IMG/VR virus record: IMGVR_UViG_3300033153_002282
Span: 1-22,826 of that record
Direction: 5' to 3' (one strand)
Length of the DNA stretch: 22,826 nucleotides
Source of the DNA: a virus
How positions within the stretch are numbered: the first letter of the stretch is position 1; every line of letters begins with the position of its first letter. Below, one piece after another: positions 3,776 to 15,539 of this stretch. The position numbers and the translations under genes are program-made. The notes beneath the pieces were generated by a model that made no database searches, was not told where the DNA came from, and was given only the letters and a program-made list of their open reading frames with translations.

Positions 3776-4471
3776 ATGTATGCTAAGGTATTCGCGCAAG
3801 TTCTGGACTCGTCCTTGGCCGAAGATTACGAGGCCCGTCACGTCTTTATCGACCTGCTACTCTTGGCCGACCAAGACGGCATAGTTGACATGACACACGA
3901 TGCTATTGCGCGCAGAACAAACGCGCCGCGTGACGTTATCGTGTCCGCTATCAAGAAACTGTCGGCCCCTGACCCTGAGAGCCGGACACCGGACGCAGAT
4001 GGCCGGCGGATTGTCCTTCTCGACGCGCACAGGGATTGGGGTTGGCGGATTGTCAATTACAGTGTTTTCCGCGACATCAGGAACCGAGAGGATCGCAAGG
4101 CATACATGCGAGGATACATGCGCCAACGCAGGAGCGAAGAGCCTGTCGGAGAAGTCGCGGCAGCAGAAGAAGAATCCGCTATCTCATCTGCCGACATGAA
4201 ATCCCTTGACAAACTCGCCACAAGAGTCTACGGACAGACCCCAACGGGCAACCTGATGGAAGCCCTGGAGAATTACGACTTCGCCTGGGTCAAGACAGCC
4301 ATGCTCAAAACCGAGGCGGCGGGGAAGAGGAAGTGGGCATACACCAAGGCGATACTTGTGTCATGGGCCAAGCAAAAGCACATGGACAGGTCGGTGGGCG
4401 ATGGCCCACAGTCGCCGGAGGAAAAGGCGGAGCAGGAAGCATACGATAATATCGGAAAGGGCGATGAATGA
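3776..4471 (+). CDS. replication initiator, O/DnaD-like winged-helix protein
   Basis: This encodes 231 residues from ATG 3776 with CGGAG at 3764-3768. Residues about 20-100 form a helix-turn-helix of the kind used by phage replication proteins: YEARHVFIDLLLLADQDGIVD, then HDAIARRTNAPRDVIVSAIKKL, then a beta-wing ending in WGWRIVNYSVFRD. A basic linker follows (RKAYMRGYMRQRR, 108-119). The C-terminal part (about 145-200) ends in KWAYTKAILVSWAKQ, which matches the closing helix of DnaD-type domains. In other phages such proteins bind the origin and recruit a helicase loader. The gene directly downstream is a candidate partner. The family call is good; the origin-binding role is inferred. Confidence 0.75.
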   Translation: MYAKVFAQVLDSSLAEDYEARHVFIDLLLLADQDGIVDMTHDAIARRTNAPRDVIVSAIKKLSAPDPESRTPDADGRRIVLLDAHRDWGWRIVNYSVFRDIRNREDRKAYMRGYMRQRRSEEPVGEVAAAEEESAISSADMKSLDKLATRVYGQTPTGNLMEALENYDFAWVKTAMLKTEAAGKRKWAYTKAILVSWAKQKHMDRSVGDGPQSPEEKAEQEAYDNIGKGDE

Positions 4472-6492: not shown

Positions 6493-6593
6493 TGGACAAA
6501 CTAACATTCATACTTGCCGTGCAGGCGTTTACCGACTGCTGCCTGATACTCGCAGTCTGTCTGATTGTGGGCGAGATAAGGAGGGGTAAATGA
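6489..6593 (+). CDS. tiny single-pass membrane protein, 34 residues
   Basis: The frame runs from ATG 6489 (or the adjacent ATG 6492) to TGA 6591-6593, with AAGGAG at 6478-6483. The sequence has a hydrophobic stretch from about residue 5 to 28 (LTFILAVQAF, then CCLILAVCLIVG) and a short positive tail (EIRRGK), so the C-terminus would face the cytoplasm. The start and stop form ATGA overlaps with both neighbours. It may affect the host membrane or be a small accessory protein. It is too short for a family call. Confidence 0.5.
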   Translation: MMDKLTFILAVQAFTDCCLILAVCLIVGEIRRGK

Positions 6594-6793: not shown

Positions 6794-8550
6794 GGCCGAA
6801 CACGATCCATTGCGGCGATGCGCTCGAATGGCTTAAAACGCTGCCGGATGAGTGCGTTCAGTGTTGCGTTACGTCTCCGCCTTATTGGGGACTGCGCGAC
6901 TATGGCGTCAAGGGCCAACTCGGCCTTGAGAAAACGCCAGAGGAATATGTCGAGACGATGACAGAAGTCTTTCGAGAAGTCCGCCGCGTCCTGCGCAAAG
7001 ACGGGGTTTGCTTCATAAACCTTGGGGATTCATATTTTGGTAGCGGGAAGGGATTGTATAGGGATGGCAGGTCACATGGCACGGAAGGAAAAAAGCAAAG
7101 AACTAACGCCGGGAGCATCGGAGTAAGGCATGGGCCTTCTTGTGACATTTCCGACACAATCCCACAAGATTGTCCATTGCATGATTCGATTTGGAACCAT
7201 CCCTGTGATGGGTGTCAAGCGGCTTCCGTTCTCCACAGTCTGCACAAAGATCGTTCTGTCGCTTCTGCACCAAGCGGCGATTCACGCGCCCCCAGCCAGG
7301 CGCATACGGAATCTGCGCACGACCATCTTCCCAAGTCCCGCTCTTCGGGCCAGAAACCGACTCGCCAATCATTTTCCGCCAAGCAGGATCAGCAGCATAT
7401 ACAAGCCCCCTCTCGCGAGCAGCATCCCGCATCTCAACTGTCCAGGCCTGACGAATCTTCTCAGCGACACCGGGAAGCGAGCCACCAGTCGGATAATTCT
7501 TTTTCTTCCCCGCCGTTGCCTGCCTCATGCACTCGCGATGCTCCGCAGTCCGAACATATGATTTCTGTCCCTGGCGTTTCTCCGAAAGACGTTCTTTCCA
7601 TGTCGGGTCAGCACGCCAACAGGCTCGACAGTATTGCGACTGCCGGTGCATTCGCTGCCCACACATCGGGCATGGCCTTGAGTTCTTGTCCATACCGACA
7701 TTTTACCATACCGTTCCATCACTGTCAACTCAAGCCCAAAGACCTCGTAGGCATACCCTGGCGGCTCGCCTTCGCACTCCAGGCCGATGGCTGGTGGCTG
7801 CGCTCAGACATCATCTGGCATAAACCAAACCCCATGCCCGAATCCGTCACAGACCGCCCGACCAAGTCCCATGAGTATATCTTCCTAATGAGCAAGGCGG
7901 CGAAATACTACTATGATGCCGAGGCGATAAAAGAGTCTCAGATTACGCCGCTCGACACAAAAGCACACCAGACATTTGGCGCACCCGGAGGCAAGGCAGA
8001 AAAAGTGTACGGTGCGAAAGTAAGTGGGAATAAATGGGAGCCAAGCGGCTCCCGCAACAAGCGCGATGTCTGGACTATCGCCACTCACCCATTCAAAGAG
8101 GCCCACTACGCGACATTCCCGCCGAAACTCATCGAGCCGTGCATTAAGACCGGAACGTCTGAGCGCGGGTGCTGCCAACGATGCGGTGCGCCGCATACAA
8201 GAATAGTCGAAAAGGGGAACCTGGTTCCAGACAACCCCGGTTACAAGCCTAGGGGGAACAAGCGCGGCGGCTCTTTTGTGAAGAATGCCATGACACCTGC
8301 CGGGAGTTCTCAAGGGCATCCCAACTTTCACTATGAGCAGACAACTGTGGGTTGGCAACAATCTTGCAAATGTGATGATGGAAAACCCCAGCCCTGTATC
8401 ATACTCGACCCGTTTATGGGCTCAGGCACAACGGCTATGGTCGCACAGGGACTTGGCCGTGACTTCATAGGCTGCGAACTCAACCCCAACAACGTGAAAA
8501 TGGCAAAGCGGCGCATCTTCGGGCCACTGTATGCAGGAGCAATATCTTGA
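6790..8550 (+). CDS. DNA methyltransferase (SPPY class) interrupted in frame by an antisense HNH gene
   Basis: This encodes 586 residues from GTG 6790 (GTGA overlap, AGGAAGG at 6775-6781). Motif IV is SPPYWGLRDYG at residues 29-39, and motif I is DPFMGSGTT at 540-548 near the C-terminus. This order defines the beta class that methylates the amino group of adenine or cytosine. The body between them is canonical (LKPKDLVGIPWRLAFALQADG, then IIWHKPNP) and includes cysteine pairs near CCQRCGAPH. However, residues about 112-312 do not look like a folded domain: they are rich in Ser, Pro, His, Gln and Arg. They coincide with the HNH gene on the other strand. Without this part the protein would have about 390 residues, normal for the family. 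It could modify phage DNA against restriction. Whether it is active with the insert is unknown. Confidence 0.85.
   Translation: MRPNTIHCGDALEWLKTLPDECVQCCVTSPPYWGLRDYGVKGQLGLEKTPEEYVETMTEVFREVRRVLRKDGVCFINLGDSYFGSGKGLYRDGRSHGTEGKKQRTNAGSIGVRHGPSCDISDTIPQDCPLHDSIWNHPCDGCQAASVLHSLHKDRSVASAPSGDSRAPSQAHTESAHDHLPKSRSSGQKPTRQSFSAKQDQQHIQAPSREQHPASQLSRPDESSQRHREASHQSDNSFSSPPLPASCTRDAPQSEHMISVPGVSPKDVLSMSGQHANRLDSIATAGAFAAHTSGMALSSCPYRHFTIPFHHCQLKPKDLVGIPWRLAFALQADGWWLRSDIIWHKPNPMPESVTDRPTKSHEYIFLMSKAAKYYYDAEAIKESQITPLDTKAHQTFGAPGGKAEKVYGAKVSGNKWEPSGSRNKRDVWTIATHPFKEAHYATFPPKLIEPCIKTGTSERGCCQRCGAPHTRIVEKGNLVPDNPGYKPRGNKRGGSFVKNAMTPAGSSQGHPNFHYEQTTVGWQQSCKCDDGKPQPCIILDPFMGSGTTAMVAQGLGRDFIGCELNPNNVKMAKRRIFGPLYAGAIS
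7103..7693 (-). CDS. HNH homing-type endonuclease nested antisense in the methyltransferase
   Basis: This encodes 196 residues and is the only minus-strand gene I can support. The start is ATG at 7693-7691, with an in-frame TAA 12 bases upstream. An N-terminal zinc finger has C8, C11, C22 and C25. The middle has basic helical segments that resemble NUMOD-type DNA-binding repeats (for example MIGESVSGPKSGTWEDGR). The C-terminal HNH core has C150 and C153, the DTHHRDG motif (H162, H163), N175 and CRKCHKKAH (C180, C183, H184), so the catalytic and zinc residues are complete. It stops just inside the conserved TNAG segment of the methyltransferase. HNH enzymes of this type nick or cut DNA and spread their own genes. 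No ribosome binding site is seen; it may be translated as a leaderless message. Confidence 0.88.
   Translation of the reverse strand: MDKNSRPCPMCGQRMHRQSQYCRACWRADPTWKERLSEKRQGQKSYVRTAEHRECMRQATAGKKKNYPTGGSLPGVAEKIRQAWTVEMRDAARERGLVYAADPAWRKMIGESVSGPKSGTWEDGRAQIPYAPGWGRVNRRLVQKRQNDLCADCGERKPLDTHHRDGSKSNHAMDNLVGLCRKCHKKAHALLRCSRR
7700..7728 (-). promoter_or_regulatory. near-consensus sigma70 promoter for the HNH gene
   Basis: On the minus strand TTGACA (7728-7723) is a perfect -35 box. After a 17-base spacer, TAAAAT (7705-7700) matches the -10 consensus at five of six positions. TGG directly before it is an extended -10 element. With normal geometry the first transcribed base is 7693, the A of the HNH ATG, so the message would have no leader. 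Confidence 0.75.
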
Positions 8551-10973
8551 AGCTATTCACTGACACCCTGATAGATGATGAACTGAGAATAGAACACGAT
8601 TCCGTCAAGAGCGGGGTCGCGCGATACAAGCGGCTCGTCAAGGAAACCGAAGGACGCGGCGAGGGCGCATCGCTCAAGGCATCTGAACGCCTGTTGGTCT
8701 ACTGGTTCAAGGCTTTCCGCAGGCGCGTCCGCAAGGAACGCCGCGCTTGTGAGAAACGCCAGGCCGGAATTGGACGCGGCGTCTACGGCCAATACATGCG
8801 AATCCTCGATACCAGCCAGGCCACCGTTATTGCCATGCACACCGTACTCGGAATATGCCTTACCGAGCCGGCAGGCATCCATACCACGAAAGTCGTGCTT
8901 GCCATCGGACGCAACCTCTGCGCTCACATGGCGCGCAAACGCTTCAAGCATACTGACCATGATTCATGGAATGCACTGATGCACGCCAACAGGAAGCAAG
9001 CCAAGCCCAGGGACGTACTCAAGGTTGCTCGCAAGTTCTTCCCCGACGAAGTGTGGCCGCTACGGGTGCAGGGCAAAATAGGCGGGACCCTGCTCAAGCT
9101 ACTCACCGGCGTTGCGACTGTGCCGGACGCCACCGGCCACCACCATCCCGCGTTCGATATTTACGATGTGCGCAGGGGACGCCGCACTTACTATTACATC
9201 CGCCTCACCCCGGAAGCGGATAAGATTATCCGCGACGGGCACGCCTATCGGCAAGTCCTGCGCCCCACCTTTCAGCCGATGGTTGTCCGGCCTCTCGCGT
9301 GGACGCAAGATAACCCCGGCGGCTACCTCAGTCACAAGGTGCCCATCATCAAGAGGCTGCGTCGCCATCGCACCAATGTCGAAGTCGTGAACGACACGGT
9401 ACTGTCAGCCGTGAACGTCCTGGGCGCGACCCCGTGGCGCATCAACAAACGCATCCTCAAAGTCGCCCAAGCCCTGCGAGACCAGGGCGGCAATGTCCCC
9501 GGCATACCGCGCATGACCAAAATAGAACCGCCACCTGTCCCTCCGGACTTTACTACCAACATTGACGCGAGGAAGGCATGGAAGCGTGAGGCTGCGATCA
9601 TCCACGGACGCAACGTTGGACTCAAAGGTGAACGGGTTGTGGCCTGGCACAAGCTCGACATTGCTGATCGCTTCAAGGATTACGAACGCATCTACTTCCC
9701 GCACGACCTGGATTTCCGGGGCCGCGCCTACGCGCTCCCGCTGTTCCTGAATCATCAGGGTGACGACCTGTGCCGGGGCCTGTTGGAGTTCGCAGAGGCA
9801 AAATCGGTATCCATGGACGACAGTGCAAAGCGTTGGCTCGGCGTACACATGGCAAATTGCTGCGGTGTGGACAAGGTTTCACTCGACGACAGGGATCAAT
9901 GGGCGCGCGACAACAGGCATCGCTTTCTTGCATGGAGCATGAATCCACTCGATTGCAGCGATTGGCTTGAGGTAGACAAACCCTTCCAGGCACTCGCCAC
10001 CGCCTTTGCAATGCACGACCTGCCCGACGCCGCTTCGCGCCTCCCAATCCAAGTTGACGGTTCCAACAACGCACTCCAGCACTACGGCGCCATGCTCAGA
10101 TGCCCTGTTACCGCCGCCATGGTCAACCTCGTGCCGGGCGATATGCCTGCCGATGTCTACGCCGATGTTGCAGAGAGCACCCGCCAGCTTGTGGCCGCTG
10201 ACGCCGCCGCCGACCACTCTTGCGCCCTGAAGCTCGAAGGCTGGATAACGCGCAAGGTGGTCAAGCAGACGGTTATGACCTCTGTCTATGGCGTTACCGC
10301 GGTCGGCGCACGCCGGCAAATCCACGAATGGCTCGTCAAGGCAGGATTTGTTGACCGCGAACTCTACAATATCACCAAGTACCTTGGCGGGATTGCCCGC
10401 AAGGCCCTTGCTCGCGTCTGCGCCGCTGCATACGAGGCCATGCTCTGGCTCACCAAGTGCGCCCGCCTCATTGCCAGAGATAAAAGGAACAAAAAGAAGG
10501 AGATTGTCTACAAGGGCCAGACCGTGCGCTGGGCAACCCCGCTCGGGATGCGTGTCGAGCAGCCGTACAGGGACACGAAATCATTCAGAATCGACACCAT
10601 CCTCCACAGATTACAAATCAATGAGGTCACGAACGACGCCCCGCCCCGCACATCCCGGCAAATCAACGGGTTCGCGCCAAACTTTGTACACAGCATAGAT
10701 GGCGCACACATGATGCTGACGGCGAATAGCGCGCATGAGGCGGATATAGCCTTTGCACAGGTCTTCGACTCATTCTGGACGCACGCAGCGGACATGGATA
10801 CGCTATCACGGCTGCTGCGTGAATCCTTCGTCAAGTTGCACGAAGTGCCATTGCTGGGCGATCTGTACCGGCAGATGCAGGCAGAGTATCCCGACCGGAA
10901 GTTCCCGCCCCCGCCGGAGACGGGGGACTTTGACGTAAGGCAAGTGCTGGATTCGGACTATTCCTTCAGTTGA
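8547..10973 (+). CDS. single-subunit T7-type RNA polymerase
   Basis: This encodes 808 residues (T7: 883), shorter at the N-terminus. The start is TTG 8547, overlapping the methyltransferase stop (TTGA), with AGGAG at 8534-8538. No ATG is available nearby in frame. Family landmarks in order: NPGGYLSHKVPIIKR, FPHDLDFRGRAYALPLF, motif A QVDGSNNALQHYGAML (D504), motif B RKVVKQTVMTSVYG (K573, Y581, spaced by 8 as in T7), motif C QVFDSFWTHAAD (D741), and the C-terminal foot LDSDYSFS comparable to T7 DFAFA. Both catalytic aspartates are present. The His that normally precedes the motif C Asp is Phe740. It would transcribe phage middle and late genes from its own promoters and suggests an Autographiviridae-like phage. 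Confidence 0.95.
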   Translation: MKLFTDTLIDDELRIEHDSVKSGVARYKRLVKETEGRGEGASLKASERLLVYWFKAFRRRVRKERRACEKRQAGIGRGVYGQYMRILDTSQATVIAMHTVLGICLTEPAGIHTTKVVLAIGRNLCAHMARKRFKHTDHDSWNALMHANRKQAKPRDVLKVARKFFPDEVWPLRVQGKIGGTLLKLLTGVATVPDATGHHHPAFDIYDVRRGRRTYYYIRLTPEADKIIRDGHAYRQVLRPTFQPMVVRPLAWTQDNPGGYLSHKVPIIKRLRRHRTNVEVVNDTVLSAVNVLGATPWRINKRILKVAQALRDQGGNVPGIPRMTKIEPPPVPPDFTTNIDARKAWKREAAIIHGRNVGLKGERVVAWHKLDIADRFKDYERIYFPHDLDFRGRAYALPLFLNHQGDDLCRGLLEFAEAKSVSMDDSAKRWLGVHMANCCGVDKVSLDDRDQWARDNRHRFLAWSMNPLDCSDWLEVDKPFQALATAFAMHDLPDAASRLPIQVDGSNNALQHYGAMLRCPVTAAMVNLVPGDMPADVYADVAESTRQLVAADAAADHSCALKLEGWITRKVVKQTVMTSVYGVTAVGARRQIHEWLVKAGFVDRELYNITKYLGGIARKALARVCAAAYEAMLWLTKCARLIARDKRNKKKEIVYKGQTVRWATPLGMRVEQPYRDTKSFRIDTILHRLQINEVTNDAPPRTSRQINGFAPNFVHSIDGAHMMLTANSAHEADIAFAQVFDSFWTHAADMDTLSRLLRESFVKLHEVPLLGDLYRQMQAEYPDRKFPPPPETGDFDVRQVLDSDYSFS

Positions 10974-10987
10974 AAGGAGGTAACTCC

Positions 10988-11272
10988 ATGACTGACCAAG
11001 AGTTGAAGGAGATTCGGGATTGGTTAGACAGGCCCCATCCCATGAGGAGTCGAGAAATCATTATCAATCTCCTCGGAGAGATCGACCGGCTGAGGGCCGA
11101 GCGCCAGTGGATCAGCGTCAAGGACAGGATGCCAGAAGAAGGCATAGGTGTCTTTGGTGCTAGGCCCAATGACGATAAGACTTATGATGTATCCGTTAAA
11201 ACGATGTCAGCCGATGACGTGCTCGATTATGGCTACACCCACTGGATGCCGCTGCTCGCCCCGCCCAAGTAA
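10988..11272 (+). CDS. DUF551 domain protein
   Basis: This encodes 94 residues. ATG 10988 is chosen because AGGAGGT at 10976-10982 fits it; the frame opens slightly earlier, inside the RNA polymerase gene. Residues 1-40 are a helical leader beginning MTDQELKEIRDWL. Residues 41-92 are the DUF551 pattern: WISVKDRMPEEG at the front and YTHWMPLLAPP at the end. DUF551 proteins are common in phages, and their role is not known. It follows the RNA polymerase by 14 bases and closes the early or middle block before the noncoding region. Confidence 0.85.
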   Translation: MTDQELKEIRDWLDRPHPMRSREIIINLLGEIDRLRAERQWISVKDRMPEEGIGVFGARPNDDKTYDVSVKTMSADDVLDYGYTHWMPLLAPPK

Positions 11273-11280
11273 TCCACCGG

Positions 11281-11289
11281 TTATCCACA
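11281..11289 (+). other. DnaA box
   Basis: TTATCCACA is an exact match to the strongest E. coli DnaA box. It is the only exact copy that I saw in the window. It also forms the left part of a small dyad, CCACA (11285-11289) with TGTGG (11297-11301). Confidence 0.45.
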
Positions 11290-11377
11290 ACAGCCGTGTG
11301 GTGGAATCCCCCACGCCCCCTCTCTGTGTGGGAAAATCCTACACATTGCCATAACTCCCATCATACCAACGCCAGAA

Positions 11378-11400
11378 GTGTCTCACAGGTTTTGAGACAC
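11378..11400 (+). terminator. terminator-like hairpin
   Basis: GTGTCTCA (11378-11385) and TGAGACAC (11393-11400) are a perfect 8-base inverted repeat with a 7-base loop. A T run (CCATTTT) follows about 10 bases later, which is weaker than a standard rho-independent terminator. It could end early transcription or bind a regulator. Confidence 0.4.
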
Positions 11401-11452
11401 CCGTTCCATTTTGATAATAAATGGGGGACTTATGCCCATTTACCTCCGTAGA

Positions 11453-11473
11453 GTGGGGAGAAATTCCCCGGTT
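11453..11473 (+). repeat. direct repeat copy 1, with inner dyad
   Basis: This 21-base unit matches copy 2 at 19 of 21 positions and has GGGGA and TCCCC arms that can pair. A degenerate third unit lies upstream at 11420-11440, with arms AATGGG and CCCATT. Confidence 0.6.
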
Positions 11474-11475
11474 GG

Positions 11476-11496
11476 GTGGGGAGAAACTCCCCGATT
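11476..11496 (+). repeat. direct repeat copy 2, with inner dyad
   Basis: This is the second copy, starting 23 bases after copy 1. Its arms GGGGAG and CTCCCC pair perfectly around AAA. Two units one or two helical turns apart could be operator sites, iterons or RNA hairpins in the leader of the gene at 11533. Confidence 0.6.
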
Positions 11497-11532
11497 CACC
11501 CATTGTGTCGCATTTTGGAACACGAGGCGAAT

Positions 11533-12102
11533 ATGCAGCGACATGTCTATGTCTTCTTCGCCACTGGCCGCTCCAAGCAGGTCAAACGCCGATATGGCCT
11601 TGTCTCATGGCTTGTCCGCGTCCTCACCTTCAGCCCTATCTGCCATTGCATGATCGGGTTCGACGGTGTTGTCCTCGACCCCGGCCTTGACGGAGTGCGA
11701 TATTGGGCGCCGATAGATGGATTTATCAGGCATTACCCGTCTCTTTATGCCCTATTTCGCGTTCCTGTGCCCTATGGGCTCGATCTAGACTTCTTCAGGC
11801 CCAATGTAGGCGTCCCCCAGCCGATCTTCCCCAGGCTGCTTAGACTGCTTCTGTGGGGCCGTGGGCCATGGATATACGACTGCCTGTGCGTTGCGCTCTC
11901 GTGCCTTCACGCCGCAGGCGTGCCCGCCAAGCAGCACATTAGCACCCCTGCCGGCCTCTACCGCTGGCTCAGAAAGAAAGGCTATGCCTATGCCTGCCAT
12001 GCCGGGCGGACAGAAGAATCCTTCCGCGATGCCGCGAGACACCTTTGGCTTAATCGAATGGCTCGACGAGAAGCTCTGCCCACCAAAGCTGCCAAGCCCT
12101 AA
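11533..12102 (+). CDS. possible permuted papain-like cysteine hydrolase, unknown role
   Basis: This encodes 189 residues from ATG 11533 with a modest GAGG at 11524-11527. An early basic segment is followed by SPICHCMIGFDGVVLDPGLDG (H38) and, much later, WIYDCLCVALSCLHAAG (C117), then a TPAGLYRWLRKKG helix. A histidine with a following beta-strand placed before the nucleophilic cysteine is the layout of circularly permuted NlpC/P60 or LRAT-like enzymes. The H38 and C117 pair is my inference, and no third residue is assigned. It sits in front of the connector gene, where podophages often carry small unknown or virion-associated proteins. It might cut a peptide or lipid bond, but this is not shown. 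Confidence 0.55.
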   Translation: MQRHVYVFFATGRSKQVKRRYGLVSWLVRVLTFSPICHCMIGFDGVVLDPGLDGVRYWAPIDGFIRHYPSLYALFRVPVPYGLDLDFFRPNVGVPQPIFPRLLRLLLWGRGPWIYDCLCVALSCLHAAGVPAKQHISTPAGLYRWLRKKGYAYACHAGRTEESFRDAARHLWLNRMARREALPTKAAKP

Positions 12103-12208
12103 AGAATTGAGTACCGAAGACGGCAGGATTACTTACGCAATGCACATGGGCCAACGGGACCTGATAACCAACCTGAAGACCCGCATGGCGCGCGAAGGAG
12201 GAGGATGA
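12029..12208 (+). CDS. small hypothetical protein before the connector
   Basis: The conserved-looking part starts at ATG 12029 (59 residues: MPRDTFGLIEWLDEKLCPP, then TEDGRITYAMHMGQRDL). In-frame ATGs at 11999 and 11984 are alternatives; 11984 has AGAAAGG close upstream, so the true start is uncertain. It overlaps the end of the gene at 11533. It looks like the short helical proteins often found upstream of podophage portal genes. The function is unknown. Confidence 0.6.
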   Translation: MPRDTFGLIEWLDEKLCPPKLPSPKELSTEDGRITYAMHMGQRDLITNLKTRMAREGGG

Positions 12209-12209
12209 T

Positions 12210-12566
12210 ATGGGTGGTGATATATCCGCAGGAACAGCGGTAAGGGAACTTGGCCGCGGTACAGAATCATTAGGTATCCCGAGCGGCGGGGAGGTAGCGC
12301 GCCAAGGTGAGCGGTTTCGCAAAGAACACAAGCGCGTTTGGCACAAGATCAAGGGTGTGTTTGTGCCAGTTTACCCAGAACAAGAACCCATCAATATTGA
12401 ATTTCCCGAGCAAGAAGAGCCAGAACCACTGGTTGACGAAGAAGAGGCCAGCAATCTCGCACGGCAACGCAGGGCACTTGAAGCCAGGCGCAGGGGCCGC
12501 AGTTCGCTTCGCATCGACAACCCGGCTATGGCTACCAGCTTTGGTTCAGGATTGAGAATTCCCTAG
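12210..12566 (+). CDS. small head-region protein of unknown function
   Basis: This encodes 118 residues from ATG 12210 with GGAGGAGG directly upstream. The N-terminal half is glycine-rich and then basic (RFRKEHKRVWHKIKG). The middle is very acidic (EFPEQEEPEPLVDEEE). The end reads RRRGRSSLRIDNP and GSGLRIP, a tail that I associate with small phage proteins next to portal genes. It ends at the base before the connector start, so the two are translated together. It may be a head completion or minor virion protein. Confidence 0.65.
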   Translation: MGGDISAGTAVRELGRGTESLGIPSGGEVARQGERFRKEHKRVWHKIKGVFVPVYPEQEPINIEFPEQEEPEPLVDEEEASNLARQRRALEARRRGRSSLRIDNPAMATSFGSGLRIP

Positions 12567-15351: not shown

Positions 15352-15539
15352 CGGACAAGTCAAGAAACGCTCCCACTGGAATACGCCTGATTTGCCCGTG
15401 TCCGCACAACTCCCACGAGCCGTACCACTCCAGGGACAATCTACCCAGACCCCTGGACGCACACGATAACTCCGAAGAGTAAGTAGCGACGAAACACCAC
15501 TAGGATACGTAAACACATTTACTCTATGGAGACCAAGCA
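15352..15539 (+). other. noncoding leader before the major capsid gene
   Basis: This stretch of 188 bases has no supported gene. It contains a perfect 7-base dyad at 15429-15457 and the capsid gene's ribosome binding site (GGAG within CTATGGAGACC). This is where T7 has its strongest promoter, phi10. The end (ACATTTACTCTATGGAGACC) resembles the T7 initiation end only loosely. It may hold a phage promoter that I cannot define. Confidence 0.4.
15429..15457 (+). repeat. inverted repeat upstream of the capsid gene
   Basis: TCCAGGG (15429-15435) and CCCTGGA (15451-15457) pair perfectly across a 15-base loop. There is no T run after it, so it is more likely an RNA processing or binding site, or chance, than a terminator. 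Confidence 0.35.

Follow-up and report, generated by a model that had tools for sequence, protein, structure and literature searches.

What is a dyad-rich non-coding stretch doing downstream of the RNA polymerase gene and ahead of the late genes in a phage with a T7-type polymerase? The question is raised by a 22.8-kb virus record (a single contig and a fragment of the genome; hereafter the window), where a first-pass annotation had proposed that positions 11273-11532 form a replication origin or a switch region. The early genes of the window encode an ERF recombinase, a DnaD-like replication protein that is a candidate binder of the stretch (3776-4471, + strand; phrog_186, E 3.8e-8, match at residues 159-200), RusA (5070) and a DNA methyltransferase; the replication-type genes that could be recognised are those for ERF, the DnaD-like protein and RusA, with no recognisable T7-type DNA polymerase in this fragment. 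Further along lie the gene for a T7-type single-subunit RNA polymerase (8547-10973, + strand; PF00940, E 1.3e-118; PF14700, 8.8e-34; phrog_414, 1.2e-188), a DUF551 gene (10988-11272, + strand; PF04448, E 3e-10 for 10970-11272), the stretch itself, a gene whose family was not recognised (11533-12102, + strand) and which has a homologue following the polymerase gene in 60 relative loci, and then the virion genes for a T7-type connector, scaffold, capsid and tail.

The polymerase has 808 aa and is matched over its length by T7-type models, and more weakly by an N4-like family. Among the matches listed, the polymerase, connector and capsid proteins are at most 33% identical to those of named phages. 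Protein scans of viral contigs gave no loci for three window proteins and a single locus, at 24% identity, for the connector, while a polymerase search of 392 genomes from the phylum of G001 (the genome of locus L096) returned seven genomes with a match at E 1e-20 or better, the best at 37%.

Elsewhere in the window, the protein encoded at 149-502 matches Tad4, an inhibitor of Type I Thoeris (PF25186, E 6.1e-11), and its gene is likely an anti-defence gene. The polymerase carries the C-terminal motif VFDSFWTH, compared with IHDDYGTH in L003 and IHDSFGTH in L002, and the W of this motif is invariant across a seven-sequence alignment of close relatives. A reading frame at 11861-12208, overlapping the end of the 11533 gene, matches the DNA of the related loci L146 and L148 at the same position and is probably a small overlapping gene.

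Dyads and other elements of the stretch

The stretch is non-coding, being bounded by the stop codon of the DUF551 gene at 11272 and by a start codon at 11533 that has a ribosome-binding site. The earlier claim that it is the only long one is nearly right: it is the longest such region seen, and shorter ones of about 188 nt and about 120 nt lie ahead of the capsid gene and at 2200-2320, respectively. Counting stems of at least 6 pairs (one G-T allowed, loops of 3-9), its 260 bases hold six stem-loops against a mean of 1.43 in dinucleotide shuffles; six was reached by 0 of 500 shuffles and 0 of 174 window tiles. A stricter count of hairpins with perfect arms of at least 6 gave three against 0.81, with as many in 13 of 300 shuffles. 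The stretch is confirmed as real and non-random.

The elements listed by the first-pass annotation are present. An exact TTATCCACA box, matching a DnaA-box, lies at 11281-11289 (+ strand), and shuffles of the whole window average 0.1 exact copies; the window has four DnaA boxes with at most one mismatch against 2.97 expected, which is no enrichment, and the box is probably a chance match. The 8-bp perfect hairpin at 11378-11400 consists of two outward-facing TGAGACAC half-sites that form a dyad with a spacing of 7 nt; the half-site also occurs in the corresponding gaps of L148 and L188. An AT-rich patch (A/T at 14 of the 17 bases preceding 11423) spans 11404-11422, and the 17-nt word CGTTCCATTTTGATAAT at 11402-11418 (+ strand) is found exactly, in the opposite orientation, in L148. 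The two 21-base repeats, identical at 19 of 21 positions, form tandem dyads at 11453-11473 and, 23 nt downstream, at 11476-11496 (both + strand), with no additional copy within 3 mismatches (two matches, 0.17 expected by chance; 2 of 100 shuffles equal). The degenerate third repeat is the dyad TGGGGGACTTATGCCCA at 11422-11438, which differs from the tandem-repeat consensus by 5 mismatches. An addition to the earlier inventory is dyad family 1, with copies 30 nt apart on the + strand: a degenerate one at 11296-11314 (3 mismatches to a consensus derived from L148) and a good one at 11326-11344 (0 mismatches; 0.01 expected within 3).

Searches for promoters, terminators and RNA families were largely negative. 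A scan of 10500-12500 for sigma-70 promoters with spacers of 16-18 gave 0 matches; TTGAGA-15-GATAAT at 11392-11418 looks promoter-like by eye, with a 15-nt spacer outside the range of the scan, and the L148 counterpart of the word within it points away from the late genes. A possible promoter pair for the T7-type polymerase, CCCGTTCC-N15-GGGGG at 2291 and 11400, was equalled in 119 of 2000 shuffle sets and was dropped once the word at 11402-11418 had turned out to be the part common with L148. No T7-type promoter motif repeated before several genes was found: the comparison of the gap with the capsid-gene leader was matched by 65 of 200 shuffles and was significant in 0 of 11 phages. The word CCGTAG..TG is common to the gaps of the window, L146 and L187, and in L187 reaches the start codon of the next gene. 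Hairpin promoters of the N4 type, which go with a virion-type polymerase, were rejected here because the polymerase is T7-type and because, under the N4 rules, transcription from a purine triloop on the + strand would run leftward. No intrinsic terminator (a G+C stem followed by a T run) was found within 11273-11532. Rfam, searched over the window up to E 2, gave one match below the gathering score (2869-2983), and none at the gathering score in L146, L148 or L187.

The non-coding leader of the capsid gene, at 15352-15539, carries the pattern GGACAATCC ... GGGACCCG ... GATAACTCC, which is also present in relatives. An alignment of 8 of 11 leaders (L110, L152 and L163 left out) gave a consensus fold of 11 pairs, six of them with both-side changes in at least one sequence, at a weak energy of -4.1 and without a shuffle control; in L146 and L187 this leader has no Rfam match at the gathering score. 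It is possibly a structured RNA.

A probable inserted block and the words shared with one relative

Loci for comparison came mostly from protein scans of viral contigs and from genome contigs. In 60 relative loci, forming 41 clusters at 90% DNA identity, both the polymerase and the homologue of the 11533 gene could be placed, and the gap between them is at most 110 nt in 37 of the 41 clusters, the relatives' lengths being estimated from alignment offsets with an accuracy of some tens of bases. The longer gaps are those of L148 (196 nt), L211 (444 nt), L125/L126 (573 nt) and L154 (702 nt); that of the window is 559 nt. The closest relatives, L146 and L147 (polymerase 60% and capsid protein 74% identical), have a gap of 87 nt and lack the array, and no perfect dyad of at least 6 was found in the L146 gap. 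The last part of the window gap, a leader with its ribosome-binding site at 11499-11530 (+ strand), is identical at 25 of 32 positions to the sequence just before the next gene of L146, a match that none of 500 shuffles and none of the 221 other tiles equalled. A tblastn match to the DUF551 gene was obtained in 0 of 221 other loci. Because the gap is so short in most clusters and the last 32 nt of the window gap match L146, the DUF551 gene and the dyad array (10974-11498, + strand, the right edge being placed from the leader shared with L146) are probably a block, missing from most relatives, that was inserted after the polymerase stop codon and upstream of an older leader.

Some of the other long gaps also contain palindromes or repeats. 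The L154 gap has two 23-nt palindromes directly before the next gene; that of L211 has tandem 10-nt units and six palindromes, a number reached by none of 300 shuffles, whose mean is 0.76; and in L125/L126 palindromes are no commoner than in shuffles (2 against 1.75; 164 of 300). Read by eye, L154 2773-3423 contains a tRNA-like gene and an acetyltransferase-like ORF. L211 1485-1893, a gap of 409 nt, holds about nine tandem copies, counted by eye, of the 10-nt unit TACGCATCTC and its variants, with several palindromes, and the 555-nt regions L125 2439-2993 and L126 2812-3366 are apparently non-coding and have the perfect palindrome GGTGTCAACGTTGACACC.

Only one relative, L148, shares the array. 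Its polymerase is 48% identical to that of the window, and the region examined (7126-7342, 217 nt) extends at its end into the start of the next gene. In this gap a 19-21-nt dyad occurs three times (as TGTGTAGGAAAATCCCACACG and variants of it) and the unit TATCRAAATGGAACGC twice; there are also two dyads whose TGAGACAC half-sites face inward, the second spanning the start of the next gene. The window stretch and the L148 gap have 42 9-mers in common (both strands counted; 21 words), compared with a maximum of 8 in 648 control tiles (206 from L148, 442 from the window). The best tiles from other loci share 20 (L142, a locus originally retrieved for its match to the GGGGA/TCCCC pattern), 18 (L067) and 14 (L072); the words of L067 (4294-4408) lie inside its 892-aa polymerase ORF and those of L072 inside its polymerase match. 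A gapped local alignment of stretch and gap separated poorly from controls, scoring 61.5 forward and 73.0 reverse against control maxima of 59.0 and 71.5.

Consensus sequences built from L148 only are the fairer test of this sharing. With family 1, matches in the window within 3 mismatches occur only in this gap (0.01 expected), the palindrome read on the other strand being set aside in the count; among the relatives scanned (L146-L222 and seven more loci), the consensus is also met within 2 mismatches at one place in L152/L153, inside the span of the polymerase match. The TATC..GGAACGC unit has one window match, with 2 mismatches, where 0.01 are expected within 3, while for the TGAGACAC family the window site is no better than three other sites (4 mismatches each). 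As written, the patterns of families 1 and 2, composed after both gaps had been seen, are confined to the window and L148 gaps among 223 sequences totalling 3.0 Mb (the window, its own record L001 and 221 others). The pattern of the 17-nt word also matches L189 once, and a shorter form matches L073 and L067; the TGAGACAC half-site alone is common across sequences, with one in the L188 gap. Relative to L148, family 1 has the same orientation and the part with TGAGACAC and the 17-nt word is inverted. The tandem GGGGAG-AAA-YTCCCC dyads nearest the late gene share only an 11-nt word with L148. Conservation of the repeats in relatives, a check named by the first-pass annotation, is seen for several words in the same gap of L148, but the 21-base tandem dyads themselves are reduced to that 11-nt word. 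At the DNA level the stretch has no relatives in phages or plasmids (six phage matches at E 0.2 to 3), and no phage match better than E 3 was found for the L148 gap.

Operators, RNA leader, cargo or origin

Because several paired words recur at the same place in one related phage, the stretch is probably a control region rather than a product of chance. The switch or operator reading proposed earlier gains support from these words at the same locus in L148, and our tentative preference, held at slightly less than even confidence, is that the dyads are candidate DNA-binding operators controlling the early/late junction. The array and the DUF551 gene would have arrived as one block, downstream of the phage RNA polymerase gene and ahead of the late operon. 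Its dyads and words, of at least three families (two family-1 copies, the TGAGACAC dyad, and tandem 17-bp dyads 23 bp apart), would be recognised in double-stranded form by dimeric proteins of the phage or its host, and these would set the amount of transcription passing from the early/polymerase unit into the late genes, either by covering a promoter or as a road-block. We infer protein binding, the identity of the binders and transcription as the process controlled. An array with parts that are inverted, repeated or lost between relatives, and with dyads of 15-23 bp of which some are nearly spacerless, is best read as dimer-bound DNA; L148 and L154 have three palindromes with a spacer of only 1-2 nt, a spacing more in keeping with DNA sites than with hairpins in RNA. 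As in the operator arrays of phage repressors, dyads of about 17 bp recur here at short, regular intervals, and the position between the polymerase unit and the late genes suggests control of passage into the latter. A Pfam search with 21 of the window's proteins revealed no repressor, activator or HTH regulator. Nor is the array a general requirement for late expression, because L146, which lacks it, has a polymerase 60% identical and late proteins 48-74% identical to those of the window.

A 92-aa protein of L148 (4137-4415), encoded two genes before the polymerase, has a TFIIB-like zinc ribbon (PF13453, E 5.6e-7) and is a possible candidate binder of the array. In the window, a 67-aa protein at 6590 has a sub-threshold zinc-ribbon match only (E 0.03).

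Much of the same material could be read as RNA, with hairpins acting in the mRNA on its processing or stability, on its translation, or by antitermination in late transcription. Folding of the stretch is better than that of its shuffles at z -2.57, with 3 of 200 equally good; for the L148 gap, z is -6.15 and 0 of 200 shuffles do as well. The L148 fold, however, is largely made of repeat copies paired with one another, palindromes present in several copies are bound to fold well, and within the window the folding energy is unexceptional (46 of 174 tiles as low or lower). The tandem hairpins lie within 80 nt of the start codon and have AAA loops, and their single stem difference keeps pairing (G-U or G-C). 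Family 1, in contrast, lacks the paired changes that an RNA helix should show: 92.5% of cells are paired against 93.0% in shuffles, with no both-side changes in five copies. The capsid-gene leader is a possible structured RNA in these phages, and leaders of this kind may therefore be in use; however, an RNA element would be unlikely to tolerate an inversion such as that of part of the array in L148. The suggestion that the stretch forms RNA structures in the leader of the 11533 gene keeps its support from folding and is weakened for family 1 by the missing paired changes; we consider it distinctly unlikely. Least probable of all the readings is that the block is cargo (a moron), a DUF551 gene with its own flanking signals or a hairpin-rich mobile element, whose dyads have no role for the phage. 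The gene and array do sit between the polymerase stop and the older leader, and L154, L125/L126 and L211 have long gaps at the same spot, but L148 carries the words without a DUF551 gene, a terminator-like site is absent inside 11273-11532, and families 1 and 2 are absent elsewhere in the 3.0 Mb searched.

Replication offers a stronger competitor, one that we still hold to be unlikely. As with lambda O, which acts at the iterons of its origin, the DnaD-like protein (3776) would bind the dyads as iterons, the AT-rich patch at 11404-11422 would open and the helicase would be loaded. The first 120 aa of this protein, which we read as its putative DNA-binding part and for which no Pfam model scored above cut-off, have a counterpart of 40% identity in L148. 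When the window is compared with the 221 other loci, this part is seen only in the window and L148, and only these two share the words, with at least 4 kb of upstream DNA available in 19 of the 41 clusters (L148 included); yet this co-occurrence concerns two phages, in which other common genes are possible. The window's own initiator gene has no internal iterons (the tandem family was searched for there and not found), whereas the L148 initiator gene contains two copies of CGCTGTAACGCC and a third that differs by one change, repeats such as a gene-internal origin would have and which count against an origin at the array. The primary origin of T7 likewise lies right after its RNA polymerase gene (gene 1). 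Against an origin at the array, the cumulative GC skew of this 22.8-kb fragment turns near 6.8 kb and 20 kb, not at 11.4 kb where the first-pass annotation had proposed to look for a turn; the DnaA box is single and unenriched rather than part of a cluster, with none in the L148 gap; and there are several unlike dyad families instead of one iteron. The skew and the solitary box speak against the origin proposal, and the initiator homologue and words found together only in L148 speak for it.

A scan for tandem GGGGA-N5-TCCCC dyads gave 12 viral contigs, some of them near-duplicates. In L136, L140 and L142 the motif lies inside initiator-like ORFs, as in lambda-type origins; the L136 ORF matches phrog_6643, a replication-initiation family (E 1.4e-4), helix-turn-helix matches of the L136 and L140 ORFs are below cut-off, and the L142 ORF has no family. 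In L139, L141 and L143, on the other hand, genes for terminase, portal or virion proteins lie close to it, and in further contigs, too, it is overlapped by mechanical ORFs. In L137/L145 it stands beside a helicase-like gene with a DnaA box. L145 800-1000, which has many GGGGAACGC repeats, the tandem dyad and a DnaA box next to the helicase-like gene, looks like an origin.

The operator and origin readings could also be combined, an idea to which we give little credence: in a hybrid phage the T7 origin position would have been given to a DnaD-like initiator, and an orientation-independent array, its core working in either orientation, would serve as both origin and early/late gate.

Comparison with known systems

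The array resembles a lambda-O iteron origin in its repeated dyads, its AT-rich patch and the presence in the genome of a replication protein of the O/DnaD kind, and differs in lying 7 kb from the initiator gene, in the missing skew turn and in its mixed dyads. With the T7 primary origin it shares the place directly after the polymerase gene and an AT-rich patch, but neither tandem polymerase promoters nor a T7-type DNA polymerase were recognised in this fragment. Phage control regions of the lambda OR type contain several dyads at operator spacing, and the tandem 17-bp dyads about 23 bp apart, several per region, are like them; unlike them, the array here has several dissimilar dyad families, stands between the RNA polymerase and late genes, and has no repressor gene found nearby.

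The spaces separating gene blocks in T7-like phages are usually taken to hold nothing but polymerase promoters. In the T7-like Pseudomonas phage LUZ100, which has temperate features, a MarR-like repressor has been proposed to block the phage-polymerase promoter (PMC10134795). LUZ100 resembles the window in its T7-type polymerase and late genes, and repressor control is proposed there for phage-polymerase transcription; unlike the window, its replication genes are of the T7 type, it encodes an integrase as well as a MarR-like regulator, and the proposed target is the promoter transcribing the polymerase gene, not the gap after it (PMC10134795).

If operators do lie between the polymerase and the late genes, this would point to repressor-type or replication-coupled control in this group of phages. 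The array would then be a feature present in some members and missing from close kin, and it supplies short DNA words with which the proteins that bind it may be fished out.
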